From Cohnella sp. OV330 (GTDB taxonomy: Bacteria > Bacillota > Bacilli > Paenibacillales > Paenibacillaceae), in assembly GCF_900112065.1 (NCBI RefSeq), contig NZ_FOKE01000014.1, positions 186,001-250,000 of the forward strand: a stretch of 64,000 bases of DNA, written 5' to 3'. The number at the start of each line of letters is the position of its first letter. Position 1 is the first letter of the stretch. Both the position numbers and the translations under genes were made by a program. Shown here in pieces: positions 29,111-46,013 of this stretch. The notes beneath the pieces were generated by a model. That model was not told the DNA's origin and made no database searches. It saw only the letters and a list, made by a program, of their open reading frames with translations.

Positions 29111-29407
29111 GATTCTATTATTTTCCGAAATTCACAACATCTCACCACATTACTTATGTCTCTTACGGGGTCTGCGCGATTTTACTTTTTCTATGAATGG
29201 CATCTCTTTTCCCCACCCTTTCGCGATTGCAAGCGCGATCCGCAAGTACGATAATAGAGACGATGTTTTCACCATGCCGCGGTTCTTCATCATGCGCCTT
29301 GATGCCAGCCCCCGCTCCATGCTTGCCCTCTTCCCTCGTTGACACGAATAACTGTATAGAAACTTTTTTCAAAAAACAACCCAATGTTTGGGAGAAGGTG
29401 TACAGGT
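29111..29407. other. Spacer before the AraC gene
   Basis: Nothing recognisable apart from the AraC Shine-Dalgarno at its right end and AT-rich promoter-like sequence near 29100-29140. Confidence 0.4.
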
Positions 29408-30232
29408 ATGACATTCTACGATGTACTGCTAGAGCACCAGTTCGTTTACGAGAGGAAGACGAATCAGGATTATCCGAAAGCATTCGACTCGCATCTGGGG
29501 TACGAGATCGTATGGGTGACGAGCGGCGTACTGGAAGTCGTTCTGAAGAACCATCTGTATCGCGTCGAACCCGGCCATATTCTTGTTTTCAACGCCTTGA
29601 CGATGCATAAGTTTCATGTGCTGGAGCCGCCGTACGAGCGTCATCTGATTCACTTTCTGCCCAGTATCGTTCCGGAAGGCGCGCACGCCTTGCTGGAACC
29701 GCTCGAGCGGCTGGCATATCCGAATCATTTGCTGGACTTGCCGGGCGAGCAGGAGCGGCTCGCGGGGTTGTTCGGCCGGATCGGCCGCGAGTACGGGGCC
29801 GACGAGTGGCAGCGAAAAGCCGCGCTGCAGCTTTATTTGCAGGAGCTGATCCTGCTGATTTCCCGGCAGCTTCGCAAGTCTCCCGGGCCGCGGCAGGCCG
29901 CCGCGCCGCAGACTGCACGCGATAAGCTGGTCGGTCAAATCCTGCAGCTGCTCCACGAGCGATACCGGGAACCGCTTTCCCTTGATCTCATGGCGGAGGC
30001 GCTGCACGTCAGCAAATATTATTTGTGCCACTTCTTCAAACGGGAGATGGGCACGACGGTGCAAGCGTACATGAAGCAAATACGCGTCAATGAAGCCAAG
30101 TCGCTGCTGCTGCACACGGCGTACCCGATTCACCTGATCAGCGATCAGGTCGGCTTCCAGACGTCGTCGCATTTCATCCGCAGCTTTAAGGAGCTGACCG
30201 GCTTTACGCCGGAGCAATTCCGGCGGCGGTAG
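29408..30232 (+). CDS. AraC family transcriptional regulator
   Basis: 274 aa. The cupin-like sensor half (SHLGYEIVWVTSGVLEVVL, YRVEPGHILVFNALTMHKF) is followed by an AraC double HTH from about residue 175 (LDLMAEALHVSKYYLCHFFK; second HTH IHLISDQVGFQTSSHFIRSF). I preferred the ATG at 29408, eight bases after GAAGGTG, to 29384. It is cotranscribed in direction with the GH88/105 remnant and the 612-aa protein and is probably their local activator. Confidence 0.92.
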   Translation: MTFYDVLLEHQFVYERKTNQDYPKAFDSHLGYEIVWVTSGVLEVVLKNHLYRVEPGHILVFNALTMHKFHVLEPPYERHLIHFLPSIVPEGAHALLEPLERLAYPNHLLDLPGEQERLAGLFGRIGREYGADEWQRKAALQLYLQELILLISRQLRKSPGPRQAAAPQTARDKLVGQILQLLHERYREPLSLDLMAEALHVSKYYLCHFFKREMGTTVQAYMKQIRVNEAKSLLLHTAYPIHLISDQVGFQTSSHFIRSFKELTGFTPEQFRRR

Positions 30233-30341
30233 ACGACACAGCAATCCTGGACGATGAACGCCGCAACGGCGGATGACCGTAAGCGCGCTTGCTCCGATAC
30301 AATGGAAGCGATATTACCGACGATCCGGAGGGCGCGCTGCT

Positions 30342-30655
30342 ATGACGTTATCTGATTCTACACTATCGATGTTGGCTAACCGCGTATTTACGTTTATGAT
30401 CGCCGATCAAAGCGAACAAGCCGACAAAGTCATCCGCAATGCAGCAAATTGCCATGCCGGCGATTGGGGCATGGATATTCATCATTGGGACTGGAACCCT
30501 GGCGTCGGTCTGATCGCCATGTCGGGCTATTACGACGCCAGTCGCGAAGAGAAAGCGCATGCTTACTTGCTGGAATGGGTGCGAAACAACCATGAGCTGT
30601 CTGCTATGCGCCCCTTTACGGTCAAGGGCTAACCCTTATGCTGCTTGCCGAATTG
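30342..30655 (+). pseudogene. 5' remnant of an unsaturated glucuronyl/galacturonyl hydrolase (GH88/GH105)
   Basis: The first 85 codons (LANRVFTFMIADQSEQADKV, HAGDWGMDIHHWDWNPGVGL, AYLLEWVRNN) carry the N-terminal pattern of GH88/105 enzymes, normally 350-380 aa. These remove unsaturated uronic acids left by pectin lyases. The frame stops at 30632; a +1 shift allows a family-like continuation (APLYGQGLTLMLLAELMQ) until 30655, then homology ends. So it is both frameshifted and truncated. ATG 30342 has GGAGG ten bases upstream. It lies between the AraC gene and the 612-aa gene. Confidence 0.75.
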
Positions 30656-30677
30656 ATGCAGGAAAGGAGTTAAAGCC

Positions 30678-32516
30678 ATGTCCACCGACGCCACGCTGCG
30701 CAAGCAAGCTTATCTGGCCGCTTCCGCCAAGGACGATCATGCCGATGACCGCTACAAGGTGGCGACTTCCGCCATTAGTCGGCTCGTCTTTGGACTCCCT
30801 GTGGACGAAGAGGCGTTCGTCCGTATGCTGGAGACGATCGATCGGCGCGAAGATTGCAGCGATTTTACCATGAATGTGATCTTGCGGATGCTGGTTTTAT
30901 ACGGCGACAGCCCGTTGCTCAGCGAGGCGCTGCTCCAGCGTATTCGGTCCACCGTTACCGGATTCGAATATTGGTACGACGCCAAGCGGAGCGAGTTTTC
31001 CGGATCGCAAGTTTTCGTAACGGAAAACCACGTCATGCTGTACCGAACATGTCAGCTGCTCGCAGCTCAGCTCTACCCGGACGTTTGGTTTGCGGCGCAT
31101 GATCGGTACGGACATGAATTGTTACAGCCGGCGGCCGCCTTTATTGCCGATTGGATTCGGGTGAAGGCGTTGGTTGGATTCAGTGAATGGGATTCACATT
31201 GCTACATGTCGGAAAACTATTTGTCCGTTCTGAATGTGTACGATTTGGCCAAAGATACCGGCTTGCGCCATTCGGCCCGTCAATTGCTGGACCTGATGTC
31301 GTTCGGGATGGCGGTCAACTCCTACAAGGGCGCTTATAGCTGCACGCAGGGTCGGACGTATTCGGAATTGATCCTGGAGCCCGCCAACCAATCGACGCAG
31401 CCGCTGCAATATTTGTTGTGGGGCACGGGCGAGCATGCCGGCCATCTTCTTCACTTAAGCGCCACCGCGCTCTCCACCAGTGATTACGAGGCGCCTGCTG
31501 CCGTCATTGCCGTTGCTTTGGACGCCGCCACGATGGAAAGCCGAGAACAGCAAAGCTTCGATGTCGAGGATGGCCCGAAGCTGGGAAAAGGCGTGGCGAC
31601 CGAGGAGGATACGGCCTTCTACTGGCAGAACATGGGCTATACGCACAAGGATTTAATCCGGACCAACATCGACATGGCGCTAAAATACGGCATTCACGTC
31701 AATCACCAGCTGGAGCAGGAGGCCGCCTATTTCGCAAAGTGCGCGGCGGCGGGCATCGAGCCGAAGCCTTGCCGGGGCAGCACGTACTTAAGCCGCGTCA
31801 ACAAAATCACCCGCCGCACAAGCGATTATATGCTTAGCTGCGCGCAAGATTTTCGAAAAGGAGAAAACGGGTTCCAGCAGCACATATGGCAAGCTTCGCT
31901 GGACGGAGGCGTGGTCGCGTTCACGAATCATCCTGGAACGGAAAGCGTTCGGACCGGCCGGCCCGACTTGTGGACGGGCAACGACGTGATGCCGCGTTCG
32001 ATCCAATATGGATCGACGGTCATCTCCATCTATCGGCTGCCTTCCGATGTGCGGTTGCCGTACACGCATGCCTTCTTCCCCAAGCGCCGGTTCGATGAAG
32101 TGCTGGAGCTCGGCGGTTGGCTGTTCGGCCGAAAAGGGGACGGTTATGTAGCGCTATACTCCCAACGCGGTTATTATTGGACGGAACGTTTGCCCGAAGA
32201 AGAGGCGCGGTGCGACGCGTTGGATAATGTATGGCTGTGCCGGGTGGGGCGCCTGGCGGAGGACGGCCCCTTTGAGAAGTTCATGGAACGGCTACAGCGG
32301 AGTCGGTTGATGGTGGATGCCCGGCCCGCCGTGACGTGGCAGGATCCGGCCTACGGAGAAATCGCTTTCGGTTGGGAAGGCCCACTGGAAGTGAACGGCA
32401 ACGCAATTCCGATCGACAATTATCCGCGGTTCGACAATCCGTATTGCCAAGCAGCGCGGTACAGCGGGACGTACGCGATCCGCGCGGACGGGCATGAGAC
32501 GACGTTGCGATTTTGA
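30678..32516 (+). CDS. Unrecognised 612-aa protein, probable carbohydrate-active enzyme
   Basis: A real gene: GGAAAGGAG before the ATG, long frame, normal composition. No signal peptide or membrane segment. The N-terminal 380 residues are helix-rich with many Trp/Tyr and a VTENHVMLYRTCQLLA helix, like an (alpha/alpha) toroid. The last 230 residues look like beta-sandwich (GSTVISIYRLPSDVRLPYTH, FGRKGDGYVALYSQRGYYW, then TWQDPAYGEIAFGWEGP). The two-part plan recalls polysaccharide lyases and heparinase-like proteins, but I cannot name a family. Neighbours (GH88/105 remnant, AraC, convergent GH127) support a role in pectic or arabinogalactan side-chain degradation. Confidence 0.85.
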   Translation: MSTDATLRKQAYLAASAKDDHADDRYKVATSAISRLVFGLPVDEEAFVRMLETIDRREDCSDFTMNVILRMLVLYGDSPLLSEALLQRIRSTVTGFEYWYDAKRSEFSGSQVFVTENHVMLYRTCQLLAAQLYPDVWFAAHDRYGHELLQPAAAFIADWIRVKALVGFSEWDSHCYMSENYLSVLNVYDLAKDTGLRHSARQLLDLMSFGMAVNSYKGAYSCTQGRTYSELILEPANQSTQPLQYLLWGTGEHAGHLLHLSATALSTSDYEAPAAVIAVALDAATMESREQQSFDVEDGPKLGKGVATEEDTAFYWQNMGYTHKDLIRTNIDMALKYGIHVNHQLEQEAAYFAKCAAAGIEPKPCRGSTYLSRVNKITRRTSDYMLSCAQDFRKGENGFQQHIWQASLDGGVVAFTNHPGTESVRTGRPDLWTGNDVMPRSIQYGSTVISIYRLPSDVRLPYTHAFFPKRRFDEVLELGGWLFGRKGDGYVALYSQRGYYWTERLPEEEARCDALDNVWLCRVGRLAEDGPFEKFMERLQRSRLMVDARPAVTWQDPAYGEIAFGWEGPLEVNGNAIPIDNYPRFDNPYCQAARYSGTYAIRADGHETTLRF

Positions 32517-32633
32517 ATCGAAGGTTCATGGCTAATCAATCCGAATATTTGGTCCATTTTGAAAGGTGAGCCTATGCATAATTATTCATTGCCTATTTTT
32601 GTTTCGACCAACCCAGGTTTTAGATGCAAAAAC

Positions 32634-32657
32634 GCCTCGATCAATGCTGATCGAGGC
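32634..32657 (-). terminator. Terminator after the GH127 gene
   Basis: A perfect 10-bp stem GCCTCGATCA/TGATCGAGGC with a 4-base loop, followed on the minus strand by GTTTTTG; 80 bp past the GH127 stop. It probably serves the convergent 612-aa gene as well. Confidence 0.75.
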
Positions 32658-32737: not shown

Positions 32738-34555
32738 CTAATGGAAATAGAGACGCTGATTTCTCGCTTCGCGAATCCACACCTGCATAAATCCGCCCTC
32801 CCGATTATCCCAGGCGTAGTAAGGAATTAGCATGCACGGTCTCCCCGTCTCTTCATTGACGGTCAGAACGGTTACGCCGCCTAGCAGATCGGAACGATAA
32901 CTTGCATGAAACGGTTCATTGGCGGAGAGGGCGAAGGCGTCGTAGGTCAAATCCGGATTGTCGACTTGCTCCGCGCAATAAACGACGGGGCCGCGCTGAA
33001 CGGCGATTCGGCCACGATCGGCTTCGACCTCCGCCCTGGCGCGCACGATCGCCACAGGCATATCCAGTTCAAGCGCGACGGAATCCCCCGGCGACCATTC
33101 GCGGTCCAGCACAAGGTATCCCCGGTCCGACAGCGCTTCGGTACCCGAGAGGCTTCTGCCGCCTATCTTCAGCCTATAGCCACTGCACCAGCCCGGTACG
33201 CGCAATCGTATGACGAATGTGCCCGTCCGTTCGGGATTCACTTCAAGCTCGATCCTGCCGTCCCACGGGTACTTCGTCGTTTGCTTCAGCTTCACGGCAA
33301 GCCCGCCTGCGACCTCGAATTCCGCTTCGCCATTCATGTACTGATTGACGGCGAGCCCGTCCTCCGTCCTCGCGTACGCGTACTGGCCGATGGAAGGCAA
33401 ATACCGCACCAGATTGGTCGGGCAGCAGGACGTGCCGAACCATTCGACGCGATGATGGCCGCCATCCGACGCCAGCGGATTGACGTAGAAAAACTTGTCG
33501 CCGGACAGCGATATCCCCGCTAAAGCGCCGTTGTACATTTCCCGCTCCACCACGTCGGCATACTTGGCATCGCCGAACAGCAGGTTCATCCGATGGTTCC
33601 AGAATGCCATGGCGATCGCGGCGCAAGTCTCGCAATAGGCCGTCTCGTTCGGAAGATCGTAATCGCGGGTAAAGCCTTCATTATGCCGCGAAGGCCCGAT
33701 TCCTCCCGTCACGTACATATTGCGATCCACCGTATGCGCCCATACGCGATGCAGGGCATCGACGTAGGCGGAATCGCCGGAAGCCAGCACGACGTCCGCC
33801 ATTGCCGAATAGAGATACATGGCGCGTACGGCGTGCCCGGTCACCTTCTCGATGTCCCGAACCGGAACGTCGTCCTGGCAGTACGCCGGTCCCCATTCTT
33901 CTTTGTCCCAGATCTCGCCTTGGCCATGGCCGCGGCCGCGTTCCTCCAGCAGCCATAGGGCGAGCTTCCAATAACGCGCCTCTTGGGTGGCGCGGTACAG
34001 CTTGACGAGCGCCAGCTCGATCTCCTCATGCCCTTCCACCCAATGGCGCTTGCCGGGGCCGAATAGGCGATCGTAATGGTCGGCCAACCGGCAGGCGACA
34101 TCGAGCAGCTTGCGCTTGCCCGTCGCTTCGAAGTAAGCGACCGCCGCCTCGATCAGATGACCGCCGTTGTACATTTCGTGTTTTTCCATATCCGTCCACT
34201 TGCGCTCGGGCGCGACCAACGTAAAGTAGGTGCACAAATAGCCGTCCGGCTCCTGAGCGCCGGCGATGAGCTCGATGATTCGGTCGACTTCCGCCTCCAA
34301 CGCCGGATCCCGATCCGACATCAGCAGATAGGCTGCGCCCTCCAGCACCTTGTACACATCGGAGTCGTTAAAGTAGATGCCTTCGAATTCGCCCTCCGTC
34401 AGGCCGGCGGCCTTGGCGAAGTTGGCGATGCGCCCGGTTTTCTCGCATTGGTCGAGACAGGCTTTGATCGTGACTCGGCTCAGGGTGTCGAGACGCGGAC
34501 GCCAGAATGCATCGTCGATTTTTACCTTCGTAAAGGGAATGCTCTGCCAATTCAT
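32738..34555 (-). CDS. Beta-L-arabinofuranosidase, GH127
   Basis: 605 aa, cytoplasmic. GH127 enzymes release L-arabinofuranose from beta-linkages using a Zn-coordinated Cys nucleophile. All key positions are visible: acid/base Glu293 (RHNEGF), Zn ligands Glu309 and Cys311 (CETC), Cys377 nucleophile or ligand and Cys378 (TSCCPTN). The conserved TGGIG loop precedes them. The N-terminus has the family opening IDDAFWRPRL. ATG 34555 follows the permease stop closely and ends the operon. This is a closer match to characterised GH127 than the DUF1680 protein at 6934. Confidence 0.93.
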   Translation of the reverse strand: MNWQSIPFTKVKIDDAFWRPRLDTLSRVTIKACLDQCEKTGRIANFAKAAGLTEGEFEGIYFNDSDVYKVLEGAAYLLMSDRDPALEAEVDRIIELIAGAQEPDGYLCTYFTLVAPERKWTDMEKHEMYNGGHLIEAAVAYFEATGKRKLLDVACRLADHYDRLFGPGKRHWVEGHEEIELALVKLYRATQEARYWKLALWLLEERGRGHGQGEIWDKEEWGPAYCQDDVPVRDIEKVTGHAVRAMYLYSAMADVVLASGDSAYVDALHRVWAHTVDRNMYVTGGIGPSRHNEGFTRDYDLPNETAYCETCAAIAMAFWNHRMNLLFGDAKYADVVEREMYNGALAGISLSGDKFFYVNPLASDGGHHRVEWFGTSCCPTNLVRYLPSIGQYAYARTEDGLAVNQYMNGEAEFEVAGGLAVKLKQTTKYPWDGRIELEVNPERTGTFVIRLRVPGWCSGYRLKIGGRSLSGTEALSDRGYLVLDREWSPGDSVALELDMPVAIVRARAEVEADRGRIAVQRGPVVYCAEQVDNPDLTYDAFALSANEPFHASYRSDLLGGVTVLTVNEETGRPCMLIPYYAWDNREGGFMQVWIREARNQRLYFH

Positions 34556-34565
34556 CAACGGGGCT

Positions 34566-35396
34566 TCATCCTTTCAAACCAGTCAGCGTAATCCCTTCGA
34601 GGAAATAGCGCTGTCCCACCAGGAATACGACGACGCAGGGCAGCACGACGGCCGCCGAAGCCGCCATGAGCAGATCCCATTGCGCGTTATAGGTGCCTTG
34701 AAACATCTGCAGGCCAAGCGCCAGCGTAAAGAGCCGGTCGCTTTTTAAATAAATGAGCGGTCCCATGAAGTCGTTCCACGTGCCGAGGAAACTGAACAAG
34801 GAGACCACGATCAGCACGGAACGGCTAAGCGGCATGATAATCCTGGCATAGATTTGAAAATACGTAGCTCCGTCCACGAAAGCCGCCTCGTCGAAATCCT
34901 TCGGGATGGTGAGATAAAATTGACGAAGCAGGAAGATATTGAAGATGCCGCCGCCGAAAAAAGACGGCACGACGAGCGGGTAATACGTGTCGTAGAAGCC
35001 GATCGTCTTCCATCCGAGGAAGCTGGGAATCAGGGTGACGGCCGCCGGCAGCATCATGCTGGACATCAGGATGCCGAATACGGCGTCCCTTCCTTTCCAC
35101 CGGATCCGCGAAAATCCGAACGCCGCGATGCTGCTCGTCGCGACCGTGCCGACAAGCACGCCGACCACGATGATGAACGTATTGGCGAAGAACGTGCCGA
35201 ACGGCAAAACCGTCAGCGCCCGATGGAAATTGTCCCAGTGGAAGGGCTTAGGAATCCACTGCGGCGGCATGGTGAAGATTTGGGACAAATCCATGAGCGA
35301 GCTTCGCACCAGCCATACGAACGGGATGATAAACAGGGCGGAGATCGCGAAAAGGGCGATATAACCCCATGTCAGCGCAAGCTTCGATTGCCTCAC
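34566..35396 (-). CDS. Carbohydrate ABC transporter permease, MalG-like (CUT1)
   Basis: 276 aa with six membrane segments (WGYIALFAISALFIIPFVWL first). The EAA loop is FDEAAFVDGATYFQIYARII. The start is the GTG at 35396, overlapping the TGA of the preceding permease as GTGA, with GGGGGAG upstream. A longer frame to 35486 would overlap that gene by 94 bp without a ribosome site. Second permease of the UgpAE/MalFG-type importer. Confidence 0.93.
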   Translation of the reverse strand: MRQSKLALTWGYIALFAISALFIIPFVWLVRSSLMDLSQIFTMPPQWIPKPFHWDNFHRALTVLPFGTFFANTFIIVVGVLVGTVATSSIAAFGFSRIRWKGRDAVFGILMSSMMLPAAVTLIPSFLGWKTIGFYDTYYPLVVPSFFGGGIFNIFLLRQFYLTIPKDFDEAAFVDGATYFQIYARIIMPLSRSVLIVVSLFSFLGTWNDFMGPLIYLKSDRLFTLALGLQMFQGTYNAQWDLLMAASAAVVLPCVVVFLVGQRYFLEGITLTGLKG

Positions 35397-36280
35397 GCAC
35401 GCTCCCCCCCTTCGTAATACACCCAGGACTTCGAGGTCCTGAACACGATAAAGGTAAAAAACAGGATAATGAGGAACAACACCCAAGCCAGCGCGGACGC
35501 ATACCCCATCTCGGTATCCCGGAAAGCCGTTCTCCAGAGGTAGAACACGTAAAACAAGCTCCGGTTATTCGGTCCGCCCTGCGTCAAGATGTAAGCCTCG
35601 TTGAACACCTGGAAGGAGCCGATGATCGCCATAATAGTGTTGAAGAAGATGGTCGGCGTGACCATCGGCAGCGTAATATGGCGCAGCTTGCTGTACCAAC
35701 CGCCCCCGTCCACCTCGATCGCCTCGTAGTACTGCTTGGGAATGCCCGACAGCCCCGCGAGAAATATAATAACCGTGCCGCCTATCCCCCAGAGCGTGGT
35801 AAGCACGACGGACGGGATGACGCTGTTCTCCGAATACAGCCAATTGCTGGTCGGCAGATGCAGCCATCGGAGCGCGGAATTGATCAGGCCCAGATCGGGA
35901 TTGAGCAGCCACATCCAGATCATCGCCGAGGCGACCGCCGGCACGATGCTGGGCAGGTAGATGATCGTACGGAATACGGCTCTTCCTTTGACATTCATAT
36001 TTAGAAGCAGGGCGACGACGAAGGAAATGATAATGACGGCAGGAACCCGCAGAAGGACAAAGTAGAACGTAATGCCCAGCGACTTGTAGAAGAGGTCGTC
36101 TTCGCCCGAGAACAGCCGGGCATAATTATCGAATCCGACGAACGAGGCGTGCGCCTTGAAGACGTTATAATCCGTCAGGCTGAGCGCCAAGCTGGCGATC
36201 ATGGGACCTAACGTGAAGATGAGGAACCCCAGGATGGCCGGCGATGTGAACAGCAGCCCGTAGAACAGTCCTTTTCTCAT
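35393..36280 (-). CDS. Carbohydrate ABC transporter permease, MalF/UgpA-like (CUT1)
   Basis: 295 aa, six membrane segments. Opening MRKGLFYGLLFTSPAILGFL, with the typical loop YFVLLRVPAVIIISFVVAL and the coupling loop YYEAIEVDGGGWYSKLRHIT. ATG 36280 has GGAGGT ahead. It is 34 bp downstream of the binding-protein gene and overlaps the next permease by 4 bp. Confidence 0.94.
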   Translation of the reverse strand: MRKGLFYGLLFTSPAILGFLIFTLGPMIASLALSLTDYNVFKAHASFVGFDNYARLFSGEDDLFYKSLGITFYFVLLRVPAVIIISFVVALLLNMNVKGRAVFRTIIYLPSIVPAVASAMIWMWLLNPDLGLINSALRWLHLPTSNWLYSENSVIPSVVLTTLWGIGGTVIIFLAGLSGIPKQYYEAIEVDGGGWYSKLRHITLPMVTPTIFFNTIMAIIGSFQVFNEAYILTQGGPNNRSLFYVFYLWRTAFRDTEMGYASALAWVLFLIILFFTFIVFRTSKSWVYYEGGERA

Positions 36281-36314
36281 GCCTACCTCCGTTCTCCATA
36301 CTTTGCTTCAACCC

Positions 36315-37766
36315 TTATTCCTTCACGTCGCGGCGGCCCTGAACTTGGGCTTGCGCCTTGGCTTCGATGGAATCCAGCGCCTGCTGAGCGGTCTGTTGGC
36401 CGAGCCATACTTTATCCAGCGCGGGATTCACGATATCCATAATCTTGTTGAAGTTCTTCACGTAACCCGTCGGCGTTTGGTGGCTGCTGTTCAAGAGAAC
36501 GTCCACGACCGCGTCTTTATAGCCCGAAGGCCGGGAATCGAGGTTTTCCGTCCATTTGGCGAGCAGCGCCGGGTCCGTATACCAGCTCCGATAAGCAGGC
36601 ATCCAGGTTCCGGCCGTGATCAGGTCGATCGCCGCGTCCGGATCGAGCAGCGCCTTCATGAGCTCCCAGGCTTCTTTGGGATGTTTGGTCGATTTGAACA
36701 TGGAGAACATCCCGGAGACGACGGTCGTCATCGGCTGCTTCAACGTCGGAAGCACGCCTACGTTGAAGTGGAACTTCGATTGCGCCAATCCTGCCGTCGA
36801 CCATTGTCCGTCGATGGCCATGGCCACTTTTTTCGTCTGAAGCGCGATATTGGTGGCCGGAATGTTCTTCGCTTGAACCGGGGACGGCGCGACATGATAG
36901 ACATTGATCAAGTCCGCCAATTTCTGAATGGCCTCTACCGCGGCCGGCTGATTCAGCGCGAAGGTCTTCCCGTCTTCGGAGACGAAGTCCCCGCCGTTGG
37001 AGTAGATGAGGTTGCTGTAATTGCCCCACCACGTTCCGATGTTAACGCCATACTGCTTAATATTTTTGGGATCGAAGGCGGGGTCGGCGGCATTCCTTCC
37101 CTTGGCGTCGATCGTCAGCTTCTTGGCGACGTCGACGAATTCGTCCCATGTCCATGCTTCCGATGCTTTGGCCGGCGGAGGCGTTAAGCCTGCGTCTTTG
37201 AAAATATCTTCGTTATAGAAAAGGCCGAACGTCTCCGGTCCCGGGCCCAAGCCGATGACATTGCCCGGTTCGAGCGAATACGTAATATTCGGGACCAGTT
37301 CTTCTTCGTTGAAATCCGGATCGGACGAGAGGAAATCCTCCAGATTGTAGAACTTGCCTTGCTCGGCCAGCGGGTAGGCGATGCTGGCGGATTCCATCTG
37401 CGCGATATCCGGCTCGTCATTGCCCGCTACCATGGTCGTGAGTTTGGTGTCGTAGTCGGTGGGGATGTGCTGCAGTTTAACCGTGATATTCGGATATTTT
37501 TTCTCGAATTTGTCGATGGCGACCTTGTAGGCTGCCACTTCCTCGGGCGCTCCCCATACCGTCATGCGAAGCGTAACGGGTTCGTTCGATTGTTCTTCGC
37601 CGGCCGAAGCCGAACTTGCCGTATGGGCGGGAGAAGCGGAATTGCCGCTTCCGGAGCTTCCGGAGTTTCCGGAGCCGGAGTCGGACTTCGTACACGCGGA
37701 CAGAATCCCAACCAGTGCGATAAGCAGCGCGATCAGAATCGAGACGGATTTTCTTTGCCGTGACAT
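36315..37766 (-). CDS. Extracellular sugar-binding lipoprotein, UgpB/MalE family
   Basis: 483 aa. Signal peptide with lipobox ILSAC (lipidated Cys25), a Ser/Gly-rich linker, and then a family 1 binding-protein fold (VTLRMTVWGAPEEVAAYKVA, PDIAQMESASIAYPLAEQGK, KKVAMAIDGQWSTAGLAQ). Delivers a monosaccharide or short oligosaccharide to the MalFG-like permeases. A promoter with overlapping cre-like site lies 65-90 bp upstream; induction probably also needs the YesM/YesN-type pair encoded just before. Confidence 0.94.
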   Translation of the reverse strand: MSRQRKSVSILIALLIALVGILSACTKSDSGSGNSGSSGSGNSASPAHTASSASAGEEQSNEPVTLRMTVWGAPEEVAAYKVAIDKFEKKYPNITVKLQHIPTDYDTKLTTMVAGNDEPDIAQMESASIAYPLAEQGKFYNLEDFLSSDPDFNEEELVPNITYSLEPGNVIGLGPGPETFGLFYNEDIFKDAGLTPPPAKASEAWTWDEFVDVAKKLTIDAKGRNAADPAFDPKNIKQYGVNIGTWWGNYSNLIYSNGGDFVSEDGKTFALNQPAAVEAIQKLADLINVYHVAPSPVQAKNIPATNIALQTKKVAMAIDGQWSTAGLAQSKFHFNVGVLPTLKQPMTTVVSGMFSMFKSTKHPKEAWELMKALLDPDAAIDLITAGTWMPAYRSWYTDPALLAKWTENLDSRPSGYKDAVVDVLLNSSHQTPTGYVKNFNKIMDIVNPALDKVWLGQQTAQQALDSIEAKAQAQVQGRRDVKE

Positions 37767-41474: not shown

Positions 41475-44138
41475 CTAGCTCTGCAACGTAAACCGATAAT
41501 TCCCGGAGCCGATTACTAGAGACTGGCCCTTTTCTGAAGGTTCAAGGCGAATCAAACCGGATATTTGGTCGAGTTGCTTCCCGCTCTCCGCAATCCGGCT
41601 CCTGTCTCGTACAGGAATGACAACTTCGGCCGTCGTATTCGGAGGAATCGTCACGTTCAGCTCGAATGTATCGCCCTGTTCCCGCCTCCAAGATACCGCG
41701 ATATTTCCATATATCGATTTGTAGGATGCATCAGCCCAAGTCAAATGTTTGCCGAACTCCGGCTGAATCCGGATTTTCTTATAGCCCGGCTCCATCAGTT
41801 CGATCCCGCTCACGATCCGATACAGCCAATCCCCGATGGCGCCATAGGCATAATGGTTATAGGAGTTCATATCGTCGCTCCAGAATGTGCCATCCTGCTT
41901 GATCCCATCCCAATGCTCCCAGATCGTCGTAGCGCCCTGTACGACGGAGAACAGCCATGACGGGTATTCTTGCTGGAGCAGAAGACGATAAGCGAGATCC
42001 GTATAACCGAACCGGGACAGTACCAGATTCAAATAAGGCGTGCCTACGAACCCGGTCGTTAGATGCGTTCCATTTTCTTCGATGTGCTCCGCAAGCATGT
42101 TTGCCGTGCGTGGCCGATCCTTCTCCTCTAGCAGATCGAACATCAAGGCGAGGACATACGCGGTTTGCGTCGGGGAAGCGACCCGGCCGCTCGGCGTCAC
42201 GAACTCTGTTCGAAAAGCCAATACGATTCTCTCGTGCAAGAGGCGGTATTGTTCTGCGTCCCCTGTTCGGCCGATAACGGCGGCGGCCTTCGCCAGCAGT
42301 TCAGTCGAATAGGCGTAAAAGGCGGTGGCGATCAAATCCTTCGGCGTGGCGCCTGCGTAGCTGTTTTCCTTGGCGTCCAGACCGAGCCAGTCGCCGAAAT
42401 GAAAGCCGGTATTCCACAAATACTCGTTGTCCCCCTGTGCCCGGATATACTCCACCCAGGCCTTCATGCTCGGGTATTGGGTTTCCAGCACTCGGGTATC
42501 GCCATAGCATTCATACAGCGTCCAAGGGCAGATGACAGCTGCATCTCCCCAAGCAGAAGAGCCGTGGCCTGCGGCGGGAATATCGGGAATGACATGCGGC
42601 ACCCTGCCGTCTTGTTCTTGATCCGCAGCCAGATCCTTGAGCCACTTTTCAAAAAACGGGACAACGTTCATGTTGAAGGCCGCGGTACGGATGAACACTT
42701 GCGCGTCTCCCGTCCATCCTAATCGCTCGTCTCGCTGCGGACAGTCCGTCGGGATATCGAGGAAATTCCCCCTCTGTCCCCAAACGATATTGTTCTGTAG
42801 CTTGTTGACGAGCTCATCCGAACAAGAGAAGCTTCCGGTCGGCTCCAGATCCGTATGAATGACGCAGCCCACGAACCGTTCCATCAGTTGTTCCTTCGGA
42901 ACGCCGGTCACTTTGACATACCGGAAGCCCTGGAAAGAGAAATAAGGTTCGTACGTTTCCTCTTCGCCGCCCCGGCAAATATAGGTGACCGTCTGCTTCG
43001 CTGAGCGAAGGTTGCCAGTGTAAAAGTTCCCGTCGCGGTCCAGCACCTCGGCATGCTGAAGCGTGATGACCGTACCGGCTTCGGCATTTACTGCGAACCG
43101 GACCCACCCGACCATGTTTTGACCGAAGTCGAGTACCGTGTCCCCTTGCGGTGTCGTAATCACTGCCAAAGGCTTCAGCACCTCGGTCACTTTAGAAGGC
43201 TCATTCTCTTGAGCAACGAGCGTTGAGCCTGGATCGTGATGAATGACCGCATTCGGCCAATTGCGATCGTCGAAACCAGGCGAACACCAGCCGTCGATCG
43301 CAAGTCGGGCATCGTAGGTCTCGCCGTGATACAGCTCCGAGAAAAGCAGCGGTCCCGTCGACGCGCGCCAGCTTCCATCCGAGACGAAGATCCGCTCCGA
43401 CCCGTCGGACATCGTCACATGCAGTTGGATCAAGGCGGCGCGTTTCGCTCCAAAATGTTCTTTCTTCCCCTCCCACGCCAAGTATCCCTTGTACCATCCG
43501 TTCCCCAGCATGCAGCCGATCGTGTTGGCTCCTTGAGAGATCAACGCGGTTACGTCGTAGGTTTGATATTGAAGACGTTTCGTGTAGCTTGTAAATCCAG
43601 GGTTAAACAGCGTGTCATCGGCAGGCGCACCGTTCACGAACAGCCGGTACAACCCTAGCGAAGTGGCGTAAACCCGTGCGGACACGATCGGACCAGGTAC
43701 CGTAAAGTCCGAGCGCAAATAATCACAGGCATCTTGAGCCGCGTCTTCAGACGCCGAGGGTGCCGTAATCCAACCGGCCCGCCACTCCGCGGAAGTTAGA
43801 AGGGCAGTCTCCCAGTACGAAGGTTCGCTCCATGCCGATACCGTACCCTGCTCGTCCCATACGCGAACTCTGAAATAATACCGGGTGCGGGATTTCAGGC
43901 CGGGACCCGCGTATTCGACATGCACATTGCGGTCCGATTCGATTTTTCCGGAGTCCCATACCCGTGCCGACGAAAAGTCGACTTCGTAAGCCGCCTCGAT
44001 TTGATAGGCGGATTGGAAAAAGCCTCTTCTTTCCGACGTCAGCTCCCAGCTGAGCCGGGGTCGCGTATCGTCTATACCCAATGGTTTTTTTCTATAGTTC
44101 ACCCGAAGGTTCGTAACCGCAAAACCGTTCATCTTCAT
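41475..44138 (-). CDS. Alpha-L-rhamnosidase, GH78
   Basis: 887 aa, no signal peptide, so intracellular. GH78 layout: an N-terminal beta domain with family opening LRVNYRKKPLGID, a second beta domain (RVYATSLGLYRLFVNGAPAD), a catalytic (alpha/alpha)6 barrel, and a C-terminal beta domain (HLTWADASYKSIYGNIAVSW). The hallmark DCPQRDERLGWTGDAQVF, containing the catalytic Asp/Arg/Glu cluster, lies near residue 464. Removes terminal L-rhamnose from oligosaccharides or glycosides. Last gene of the large operon, 15 bp after the nucleoside-hydrolase-like gene. Confidence 0.95.
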   Translation of the reverse strand: MKMNGFAVTNLRVNYRKKPLGIDDTRPRLSWELTSERRGFFQSAYQIEAAYEVDFSSARVWDSGKIESDRNVHVEYAGPGLKSRTRYYFRVRVWDEQGTVSAWSEPSYWETALLTSAEWRAGWITAPSASEDAAQDACDYLRSDFTVPGPIVSARVYATSLGLYRLFVNGAPADDTLFNPGFTSYTKRLQYQTYDVTALISQGANTIGCMLGNGWYKGYLAWEGKKEHFGAKRAALIQLHVTMSDGSERIFVSDGSWRASTGPLLFSELYHGETYDARLAIDGWCSPGFDDRNWPNAVIHHDPGSTLVAQENEPSKVTEVLKPLAVITTPQGDTVLDFGQNMVGWVRFAVNAEAGTVITLQHAEVLDRDGNFYTGNLRSAKQTVTYICRGGEEETYEPYFSFQGFRYVKVTGVPKEQLMERFVGCVIHTDLEPTGSFSCSDELVNKLQNNIVWGQRGNFLDIPTDCPQRDERLGWTGDAQVFIRTAAFNMNVVPFFEKWLKDLAADQEQDGRVPHVIPDIPAAGHGSSAWGDAAVICPWTLYECYGDTRVLETQYPSMKAWVEYIRAQGDNEYLWNTGFHFGDWLGLDAKENSYAGATPKDLIATAFYAYSTELLAKAAAVIGRTGDAEQYRLLHERIVLAFRTEFVTPSGRVASPTQTAYVLALMFDLLEEKDRPRTANMLAEHIEENGTHLTTGFVGTPYLNLVLSRFGYTDLAYRLLLQQEYPSWLFSVVQGATTIWEHWDGIKQDGTFWSDDMNSYNHYAYGAIGDWLYRIVSGIELMEPGYKKIRIQPEFGKHLTWADASYKSIYGNIAVSWRREQGDTFELNVTIPPNTTAEVVIPVRDRSRIAESGKQLDQISGLIRLEPSEKGQSLVIGSGNYRFTLQS

Positions 44139-44153: not shown

Positions 44154-45086
44154 TTATAGTGAGTTCTCGGTAAACATAGCCAGCTTGATGAAAAAGTCCT
44201 CCAGCGTAAACCGGCTGTTCACATCTTTGTAGACGCGAATCGGCCTGTTATTCCGTTCGTGAATATATCTCATGTCCGGCGAGAATGCCGGCGCCGGCAG
44301 CCAGTCATACAAGTATTCATGGTCGCAAAGCAACAGGCCGACGGCAGGGGAATCGCCCAAGCACCAGCATTCGCCGGTTCGGATCGCCGTCCGGAGGGCA
44401 GCTTCCGTATGTCCGAACGCCACCAGCTGTTCGAAGAGATACTTCCCAAGCTCTCCATGCGGCCTTACCCTGTACTCCAGCTCCGCCATCGAGACCATGA
44501 CGCGTTGATACACGTTCTTGGGAACTTGCCACACGGGGACTTGGGATTTAAATACGACATTTGCCGCGTGGATATCGTTCCAAAGGTTGTATTCCGGCTC
44601 GCCTGCCGGGTATGCGCCGCCTCCGATCCAGATCACGGTCAATCGGTCGGCAATGCGCGGTTCCATCAACAAAGCGGCAGCCATATCGGTAAGCGGACCT
44701 AAGAACGTGACGAACAGCGGCCGCGGATCATCGGACATCGCCTCTTTGATGATGAGTTCCGCGCCAGCGGAAGGGATCGGCGTCGATTCATCGGCCAGCG
44801 CACGCGGAGCGCCCTTGAATATCAGGTTGTCGTCCGGTATGTTCATGAGACCCAGAATCTTCGCAATCTCCTCATAGCTGTCTTCCATGCTGGTCTGCGA
44901 CAGCCAATCGCCGAAATGGGCAGCAATAAACCCGCGATTATCGAATTTCGGGCTCAGGAGGGCGTGAACGATCGCGTATTGATCGTCCGCCTCGTTTTTG
45001 GCATCCGTGTCCATGATGAGCCGAACCATTTTCTGGCTAGGTACGGTGAAGTTGTACTTGTCGTAGATCAAGGGGATCCTCTCCAT
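44154..45086 (-). CDS. Nucleoside-hydrolase-like protein, paralog 2
   Basis: 310 aa. The inosine/uridine-preferring nucleoside hydrolase fold: an N-terminal Ca-binding motif MDTDAKNEADDQ (Asp26, Asp28, Asp34, Asp35), middle TFLGPLTDMAAAL and IWIGGGAYPAGEPEYNLWND, where Asn and Asp bind ribose and Ca. The motif has an insertion compared with the DTDPGxDD of typical enzymes, closer to the NEPDDQ style of DUF1593. It starts directly after the stop of its paralog. A function on furanosides rather than nucleosides is possible given the operon. Confidence 0.83.
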   Translation of the reverse strand: MERIPLIYDKYNFTVPSQKMVRLIMDTDAKNEADDQYAIVHALLSPKFDNRGFIAAHFGDWLSQTSMEDSYEEIAKILGLMNIPDDNLIFKGAPRALADESTPIPSAGAELIIKEAMSDDPRPLFVTFLGPLTDMAAALLMEPRIADRLTVIWIGGGAYPAGEPEYNLWNDIHAANVVFKSQVPVWQVPKNVYQRVMVSMAELEYRVRPHGELGKYLFEQLVAFGHTEAALRTAIRTGECWCLGDSPAVGLLLCDHEYLYDWLPAPAFSPDMRYIHERNNRPIRVYKDVNSRFTLEDFFIKLAMFTENSL

Positions 45087-46013
45087 TCATGTTCCCGCTT
45101 GTTGGGTGGCGAACAACGTCAGCTTGGCGTACATATCCTCCAACGTAAACCGGACGTCTACTTGCTTATACACCCGTATCGTCCGTTCCGTTTGATGGTG
45201 GACATAATGCATGTCCGGGGTGATGCGCGGAGCGGGTATCGTCTCATAGCCGAACGTGAACGCAAGATCGTCGAGAATAAGGCTTACGGCCGGCGAATCT
45301 CCCAATCCCCAAACTTCTCCCCGCGGCCACGCGTTCGCCGGATCCTCGTTGAATCGAACGAGCTGTTCGAACAAATACTTGCCGATGGCGCCATAAGGCT
45401 TAACCCTGCACTCCAGCTCCGCCAGGCTGACCCGCATCGTGCCATAAACATCCTGCGGCACCTGCCAGAGCGGAATGCGGGAGCCCATGACGACATTAGC
45501 CGCATGGATATCGTTGCTCAGATTGAATTCATTTCTGCCGTGAGGGTAAGGCCCCCCGCCGATCCAAATCGCCGTCATCCGGTCCGCGATTCGCGGCTCC
45601 ATCAGATAGGCGGATGCCAGATCGGTCAAAGGTCCGAGAAATACGACGAATAGCGGATGCGAGTCGTCCGAGAGCGCTTCGCGAATAATCGCTTCGGCGC
45701 CTTCCGAGACAACCGGCGTTTGCTCGTCGGGCAAAGCCTTGGCAGCGCCTTTATAGACTGGGACATGTCCCGCACTTCCCATCAAACTTAATACATGCTT
45801 GATCTCGGCATAGCTTTCATCCATCGATTCCGTCGTCCGCCCTGTTCCGAAATGGGCCGCGATCATTCCCTTGTGAATCATTTGCGGCGTAAGCAGCGCG
45901 TGCACGATCGCGTATTGGTCGTCGGCTTCGTTCTTGGCGTCCGTATTCATAAGATACCTGACGCGCTTCGCGTCCGGCACTTGATAGGAAAAGAGGCTTG
46001 ATCTCTCTCTCAT
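45087..46013 (-). CDS. Nucleoside-hydrolase-like protein, paralog 1
   Basis: 308 aa, colinear with the downstream paralog. Same motif, but the first Asp is Asn23 (MNTDAKNEADDQ; Asp25, Asp31, Asp32 kept). VFLGPLTDLASAYLM and IWIGGGPYPHGRNEFNLSND follow, and both share a C-terminal IRVYK..RFTLEDM/F element. GGAGG precedes the ATG. The tandem arrangement and divergence suggest old duplication with possible division of labour or a heteromer. Confidence 0.83.
   Translation of the reverse strand: MRERSSLFSYQVPDAKRVRYLMNTDAKNEADDQYAIVHALLTPQMIHKGMIAAHFGTGRTTESMDESYAEIKHVLSLMGSAGHVPVYKGAAKALPDEQTPVVSEGAEAIIREALSDDSHPLFVVFLGPLTDLASAYLMEPRIADRMTAIWIGGGPYPHGRNEFNLSNDIHAANVVMGSRIPLWQVPQDVYGTMRVSLAELECRVKPYGAIGKYLFEQLVRFNEDPANAWPRGEVWGLGDSPAVSLILDDLAFTFGYETIPAPRITPDMHYVHHQTERTIRVYKQVDVRFTLEDMYAKLTLFATQQAGT

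Follow-up and report, generated by a model that had tools for sequence, protein, structure and literature searches.

Which reaction is catalyzed by a 612-residue protein that Cohnella sp. OV330 encodes next to pectin-type genes, and does this protein belong to a known enzyme family? The gene lies in a 64,000-nucleotide stretch of genomic DNA (contig NZ_FOKE01000014.1, positions 186,001 to 250,000), referred to below as the window. A sequence-only reading had put the protein forward as a candidate for a new glycoside hydrolase or lyase family. Our analysis supports this proposal and favors its lyase branch, because Foldseek searches with two independent models, a set of Asn-His, Tyr, and His residues, and recurrent GH105/GH88-type neighbors all point toward a lyase. 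As judged from these lines of evidence, the protein is probably a β-eliminating polysaccharide or oligosaccharide lyase that would act in the cytoplasm.

An intact gene under purifying selection

An ORF check at exact coordinates showed that the reading frame at 30678-32516 on the forward strand runs from ATG to stop and is preceded by a Shine-Dalgarno-like sequence (Table 1), in keeping with the earlier description of a full-length, well-started gene. Matches to the protein at E ≤ 0.001 were found in 16 of the 100 relatives searched, its own genome counted, with counterparts of 88% identity in relative G013 and 55% in relative G061. Comparison with the G013 copy yielded a dN of 0.064, a dS of 0.414, and thus a dN/dS of 0.16, and the gene is under purifying selection; the neighboring AraC gene gave a dN/dS of 0.13 in the same comparison. 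Conservation and purifying selection together show that this is no chance ORF. The N-terminus is hydrophilic and, judged by eye, displays no signal peptide, as had been stated before.

Table 1. Features of the locus, in window coordinates
Feature	Position	Strand	Basis or remark
AraC-family regulator	29384..30232	+	HTH_18 5.7e-24, AraC_binding 3.7e-7; same place in L034
GH105/GH88-type remnant, 119-aa ORF	30273..30632	+	homologous 5' part to ~30590
Retained 3' tail of broken GH105 gene, other frame	30599..30673	+	blastn, tblastn vs L034
Shine-Dalgarno-like aggaaaggag	30660..30669	+	8 nt before ATG; inside retained 3' tail of broken GH105
612-aa protein, proposed uronate-oligosaccharide lyase	30678..32516	+	ORF, AF2 model, Foldseek, conserved residues
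N117 and H118 codons	31026..31031	+	proposed charge neutralizer, possible base
Y176 codon	31203..31205	+	proposed catalytic acid/base
R226 codon	31353..31355	+	invariant 51/51; possible carboxylate binder
H402 codon, β domain	31881..31883	+	proposed base or activator of Y176
Terminator-like 10-bp stem between convergent lyase and GH127 genes	32634..32657	-	weak
GH127 protein, convergent with lyase gene	32738..34558	-	Pfam 3.6e-107
Three ORFs, apparent sugar ABC transporter (two permeases, binding protein)	34566..37766	-	read by eye
GH78 α-L-rhamnosidase	41475..44138	-	family scan

Sequence searches

Pfam and NCBIfam contained no match to the 612-residue protein at E values up to 1, and none at E ≤ 0.01 to the 27 members of an alignment (A5) that includes it. 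When ten diverse members were scanned at E ≤ 1, only weak chance matches appeared, except for L047, whose matches (CARDB, F5/8 type C, dockerin, and others) fall outside the core. Among PDB sequences, the best matches of the single protein (E 0.017), of an 18-row profile (E 0.07), and of a 27-row profile (E 0.49) were all to unrelated proteins, whereas a control search with a heparinase III-like protein encoded by a genome of this kind retrieved chains of PL12 (1.7e-39) and of PL39 (2.4e-5). The 27 members did not match the Pfam Hepar_II_III profile (PF07940) at E ≤ 0.01, nor did they or the query match the Lyase_8 (PL8) or PF07470 (GH88/GH105) profiles. Profile-profile alignment with hhalign gave no link to heparinase II/III relatives (best P 0.051) or to PL8 relatives (P 0.28), and on these values sequence homology with either group was dropped. 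The earlier statement that no family can be assigned thus holds for Pfam, NCBIfam, and PDB sequences, none of which yielded a described CAZyme family as a strong match, and as measured against these collections the family is apparently undescribed.

Some PL families have no solved structure, and there is a real, if minor, chance that the protein is a lyase already filed in CAZy under a family that lacks representatives in Pfam, NCBIfam, and the PDB, in which case it only appears to be undescribed. This is countered by annotated plasmid records, which label family members "hypothetical protein", and by a keyword search of the open-access literature, which yielded no description of the family.

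Breadth and forms of the family

A pattern scan of genome contigs with the single protein as query returned 0 relatives among 14 matched stretches, and a scan with a four-sequence alignment returned 29 among 159. From these genome contigs (29 loci), the relatives, a phylum sample (a match in 6 of 398 genomes, its own counted), and plasmid records (199 at E ≤ 1e-5, in four of which a single place covers 80% or more of the query), we collected 56 homologous ORFs, the query and 55 others, from several bacterial phyla and haloarchaea. One relative from the four-sequence scan, L065, was not recovered at the ORF step and is absent from this set. Among the named sources are Paenibacillus, Eisenbergiella, other Lachnospiraceae, Clostridia, and Subdoligranulum, as well as Rhizobium, Neorhizobium, Opitutaceae, Acidobacteria, Chloroflexi (Thermoflexus among them), Latescibacterota, Haladaptatus, and Halogranum. 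The tree and the residue counts described below are based on 51 of the 56 rows, leaving out L072, L084, and L088 (truncated) and L092 and L093 (very distant).

Short forms comprise ~600-750 residues and carry an insertion of ~75 residues before the β domain, which is missing from long forms of ~840-900 residues; the latter possess an extra N-terminal domain of ~310 residues. L047 has 1780 residues and is built of several domains, among them cohesin- and dockerin-like ones. The Cohnella genome itself encodes a very distant relative of 1398 residues with Big_2 and fn3 domains (G000:C22:833279-834760, reverse strand; locus L093, 7886-12082), and L090 (6666-10820) holds two tandem lyase homologues followed by a 666-residue protein that has no Pfam match.

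Predicted fold

The AlphaFold (AF2) model calculated from alignment A5 (pLDDT 90.2, pTM 0.93) consists of a helical domain (residues ~1-360, with helices to 358) and a β domain (~374-612, with strands from 374), which matches the helix-rich N-terminus and β-rich C-terminus read from the sequence. In a Foldseek search of the PDB, eight chains reached E ≤ 0.001, and each of them is either a uronate lyase or dermatan-sulfate (DS) epimerase 1. Human DS-epimerase 1 comes first (6hzn, E 4.9e-6); the others are the PL15 alginate lyase Atu3025 (3a0o, three chains, 4e-5), chondroitin AC lyase (two chains), a chondroitinase, and a PL8 hyaluronate lyase. PL8 enzymes also occupy ranks 9 and 10, and the PL8 hyaluronate, chondroitin, and xanthan lyases as a group span E values of 2.6e-4 to 1e-2. 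A second model, of the divergent long-form member L086, is confident in its core only, the extra N-terminal domain (residues 1-309) having a pLDDT below 50. Its three matches at E ≤ 0.001 are DS-epimerase 1 (1.2e-5), a chondroitinase, and a hyaluronate lyase, and all of ranks 1-7, heparinase II being fifth, belong to the lyase/epimerase class.

Human DS-epimerase 1 is thus the best match of both models, each time with a Foldseek probability of 1.00, and shares with them the toroid and β sheets; a Tyr is present in its active site (PMC11848413). It differs in being an epimerase, in its identity of 10% and TM-scores of 0.21-0.34, and in having no sequence match to the family. Over all matches, TM-scores are low (0.20-0.37, or 0.20-0.35 when scaled by query length) and rmsd values are 10-22 Å, so that the placing of the fold rests on E-values and probabilities. 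For PL33, rotations of ~70 degrees between the two domains are described (PMC11848413), and a similar domain rotation could be the cause of the poor rigid superposition. With the same low TM-scores, both modeled members display the toroid and antiparallel β-sheet of the heparinase II/III-like fold. In a viral library, the best match was an uncharacterized Tomelloso virus protein (1.5e-5), with ODV-E66 at rank 4 (E 6.6e-3); these matches were kept out of the main evidence.

Conserved residues and a putative active site

E116, H118, G167, E170, S173, Y176, G218, R226, and G395 are invariant in all 51 full-length members, N117 is present in 50, and H402 in 46 (Gln in four, Asn in one); Y176 is conserved in all 53 alignment rows that have a letter at this position. 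In the AF2 model, N117 and H118 start one helix, Y176 immediately precedes another, and H402 lies within the β domain. Asn and Tyr are 58-59 positions apart in 48 rows; in three distant rows the spacing is 53, and a single doubtful row has 49. Between Tyr and His, most long forms have a spacing of 148-161, and the short forms, which carry the insertion, one of 219-237. L046, L047, and L049 constitute a distant clade with the Asn-to-Tyr spacing of 53 seen in known lyases and a Gln at the position of H402.

The sets published for lyases of this fold are N192/Y246/H401 in PL35, N240/Y294/H424 in PL12, N238/Y291/H444 in PL33, N336-H337/Y390/H555 in the PL15 exo-heparinase, and N186-H187/Y239/H405 in PL39 (PMC12088678, Table 4; PMC11848413), from which we compute spacings of 53-57 from Asn to Tyr and 130-166 from Tyr to His. 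The PL39 Tyr is numbered differently in the two papers (239 and 259). In these two sources, the adjacent Asn-His of the family is given for the PL15 exo-heparinase and PL39. In kind and order, the residues of the family appear to agree well with the Asn/His-Tyr-His set of PL12, PL15, PL33, PL35, and PL39; the catalytic roles given to N117, H118, Y176, R226, and H402 are putative.

There are nevertheless differences from each of these groups. PL12, PL33, PL35, and PL39 have the Asn-Tyr-His set at similar spacing, but 58-59 residues separate Asn and Tyr in most members here, the short forms carry their insertion before the β domain, and no sequence-profile match connects the family to PDB sequences. 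The PL15 exo-heparinase has the same Asn-His and Tyr-His order (PMC12088678, Table 4), and PL15 enzymes are exo-acting on oligosaccharides, which we count as a likeness to the proposed lyase; however, sequence similarity to PL15 is undetectable, and the Pfam Hepar_II_III domain is absent from the family. The PL8 enzymes are set apart by the hhalign result and by their catalytic His, which lies 9 residues before the Tyr (PMC12088678, Table 4), where the family has G167. GH105/GH88 hydrolases have a helical toroid in common with the family, but as usual neighbors that share no PF07470 match with it they are partners rather than relatives.

E116 and E170, both invariant, would also suit an (α/α)6-type glycoside hydrolase, and the GH127, GH78, GH3, and GH43 genes of the neighborhood, as well as the GH127 structure 6ex6 at E 2.4e-2 for the L086 model, could be read in the same way. 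We consider such an enzyme unlikely, since glycoside hydrolases occur only at E > 0.01 in both Foldseek lists, the conserved Asn-His and Tyr suit lyases better, and the partner gene is of the GH105/GH88 type; a glycoside hydrolase was dropped as first choice because none appeared at E ≤ 0.01 with either model. It is more doubtful still that the protein is non-catalytic, or otherwise different, and has only the lyase fold in common with these enzymes. The few members with Gln or Asn in place of H402 might suggest so, but Y176, H118, E116, E170, and R226 are strictly kept across several phyla, and a dN/dS of 0.16 likewise speaks against it.

A recurrent GH105/GH88-type partner

In 20 of the 56 rows, the window remnant counted, a GH105/GH88-type gene lies on the same strand within 400 bp; of the 41 rows in which each flank extends for 3.5 kb or more, 19 have such a neighbor. 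By our arithmetic, from a background of 134 PF07470 matches in 12 genomes (~80 Mb), a random gene would have a direct PF07470 neighbor in ~0.4% of cases. On the 51-row tree, the partner label (19 rows) requires at least 7 gains or losses, compared with a mean of 15.4 after shuffling, and 0 of 500 shuffles were as low; the pairing is clustered on the tree, yet in several separate groups. All four representative partners scanned match PF07470. Of three compared with PDB sequences, two are closest to GH105 proteins (2.8e-56 and 2.6e-87), and the third, from Lachnospiraceae, is closest to a putative glycosyl hydrolase, with YteR next. An adjacent GH105/GH88-type gene is lacking in 36 of the 56 rows, 15 of the 56 having short flanks; partnerless groups are the Opitutaceae, most Chloroflexota, the haloarchaea, and some Clostridia.

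The unsaturated products that lyases release are the substrates of GH105/GH88-type hydrolases, whose recurrence next to the family would imply 4,5-unsaturated products. This bears on whether the protein could be a uronyl C5-epimerase, which, with the fold and residues of human DS-epimerase 1, would invert C5 and leave the chain uncut. That enzyme is the best PDB match of both models, and lyases and epimerase share their apparatus (PMC11848413). An epimerase would, however, not account for the partner genes, and the bacterial proteins with this fold listed in PMC12088678 and PMC11848413 are lyases, which makes epimerization quite improbable and a lyase the preferred reading.

The locus and its possible substrate

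The neighbors named previously, an AraC regulator, a GH88/105 remnant, and a GH127 protein, are all backed by Pfam matches, that of the remnant (GH88, E 9.4e-4, 18.7 bits) being below the cut-off of 26.6 bits. The remnant shares 68% identity with the N-terminal ~127 residues of a 397-residue gene that is intact in locus L034 of G013. The AraC-GH105-lyase cassette of this locus is colinear with window positions 29289-32519 at 88-90% DNA identity. Relative to L034, the GH105 gene of the window lacks ~775 bp (net) of its middle part, the breaks lying at 30590/30602 in the window and 8363/9150 in L034. Since the Cohnella genome contains 13 PF07470 matches, at this locus or elsewhere, another copy may cover the function of the broken gene. 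With 27 PF07940 (heparinase II/III) and 3 PL8 matches in addition, and many ORFs of ~1700-2300 residues, the genome is unusually lyase-rich.

The terminator-like stem downstream of the lyase gene is weak, as four such sites were found versus 4.5 expected in shuffles. The GH127 protein scores 435 bits with the NCBIfam aceric acid hydrolase model, below its cut-off of 950, and the ABC transporter ORFs are a possible importer. Between the GH78 and GH3 genes, two tandem ORFs (44154-46013, reverse strand; the first one scanned) resemble inosine-uridine nucleoside hydrolases, and a related gene lies directly 3' of the lyase gene in L034 (11115-12092; 75% and 66% DNA identity). Taken together, the GH127, transporter, GH78, nucleoside-hydrolase-like, GH3, and GH43 genes suggest a plant glycan containing rhamnose and arabinose.

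In relatives, the setting differs. Rhizobium loci contain GH28 and Lachnospiraceae loci a rhamnosidase; in L035, GH52 accompanies the gene, and a heparinase-like protein and GH105 genes are encoded nearby. PL8 genes adjoin members in L060, which also has a sulfatase and GH66, and in L072, where the PL8 gene is xanthan-lyase-like. In L041 and L044, a long-form lyase and GH105/GH88 are found beside GH31 and an FGGY kinase, possibly a glycosyl-glycerol pathway; the L044 setting also includes an FAD-dependent oxidoreductase of the glycerol-phosphate type. The Chloroflexota long forms L085-L087 adjoin a glycerophosphodiester phosphodiesterase instead of GH105, and L087 also a family 5 solute-binding protein, which hints at a different substrate. 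Given these differences, a single substrate for the whole family is unlikely, and the contents of L060, L072, L041, and L044 do not support pectin as its general substrate. For the protein of the window, a pectic substrate is plausible: our guess, a tentative one, is a pectic fragment containing rhamnose and galacturonate, and the main alternative is a glucuronate-containing glycan.

Proposed mechanism and implications

In the mechanism we propose, an imported oligosaccharide with a 4-linked uronic acid would bind between the helical and β domains. Neutralizing the carboxylate of the uronate would fall to N117, with H118 and perhaps R226. The proton at C5 would go to H402 and/or Y176, and Y176 would protonate the leaving glycosidic oxygen. 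This β-elimination would produce a 4,5-unsaturated uronyl residue, which a GH105/GH88-type hydrolase, adjoining in many relatives and broken here, would then remove. On balance, we lean toward regarding the protein and its homologues as the founding set of a new family of intracellular lyases that would act on imported uronate oligosaccharides, be repeatedly paired with GH105/GH88-type enzymes, and have a fold nearest to that of human DS-epimerase 1.

If this is correct, dozens of "hypothetical" genes would turn out to provide soil, gut, root-nodule, and halophilic microbes with a lyase step for their uronate-glycan pathways, and the protein might be of use as a tool enzyme on acidic oligosaccharides, whether pectic or not. 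A sequence-unrelated branch would also join the fold class of the glycosaminoglycan and alginate lyases and the human epimerase, which would help to trace the origin of that fold class.
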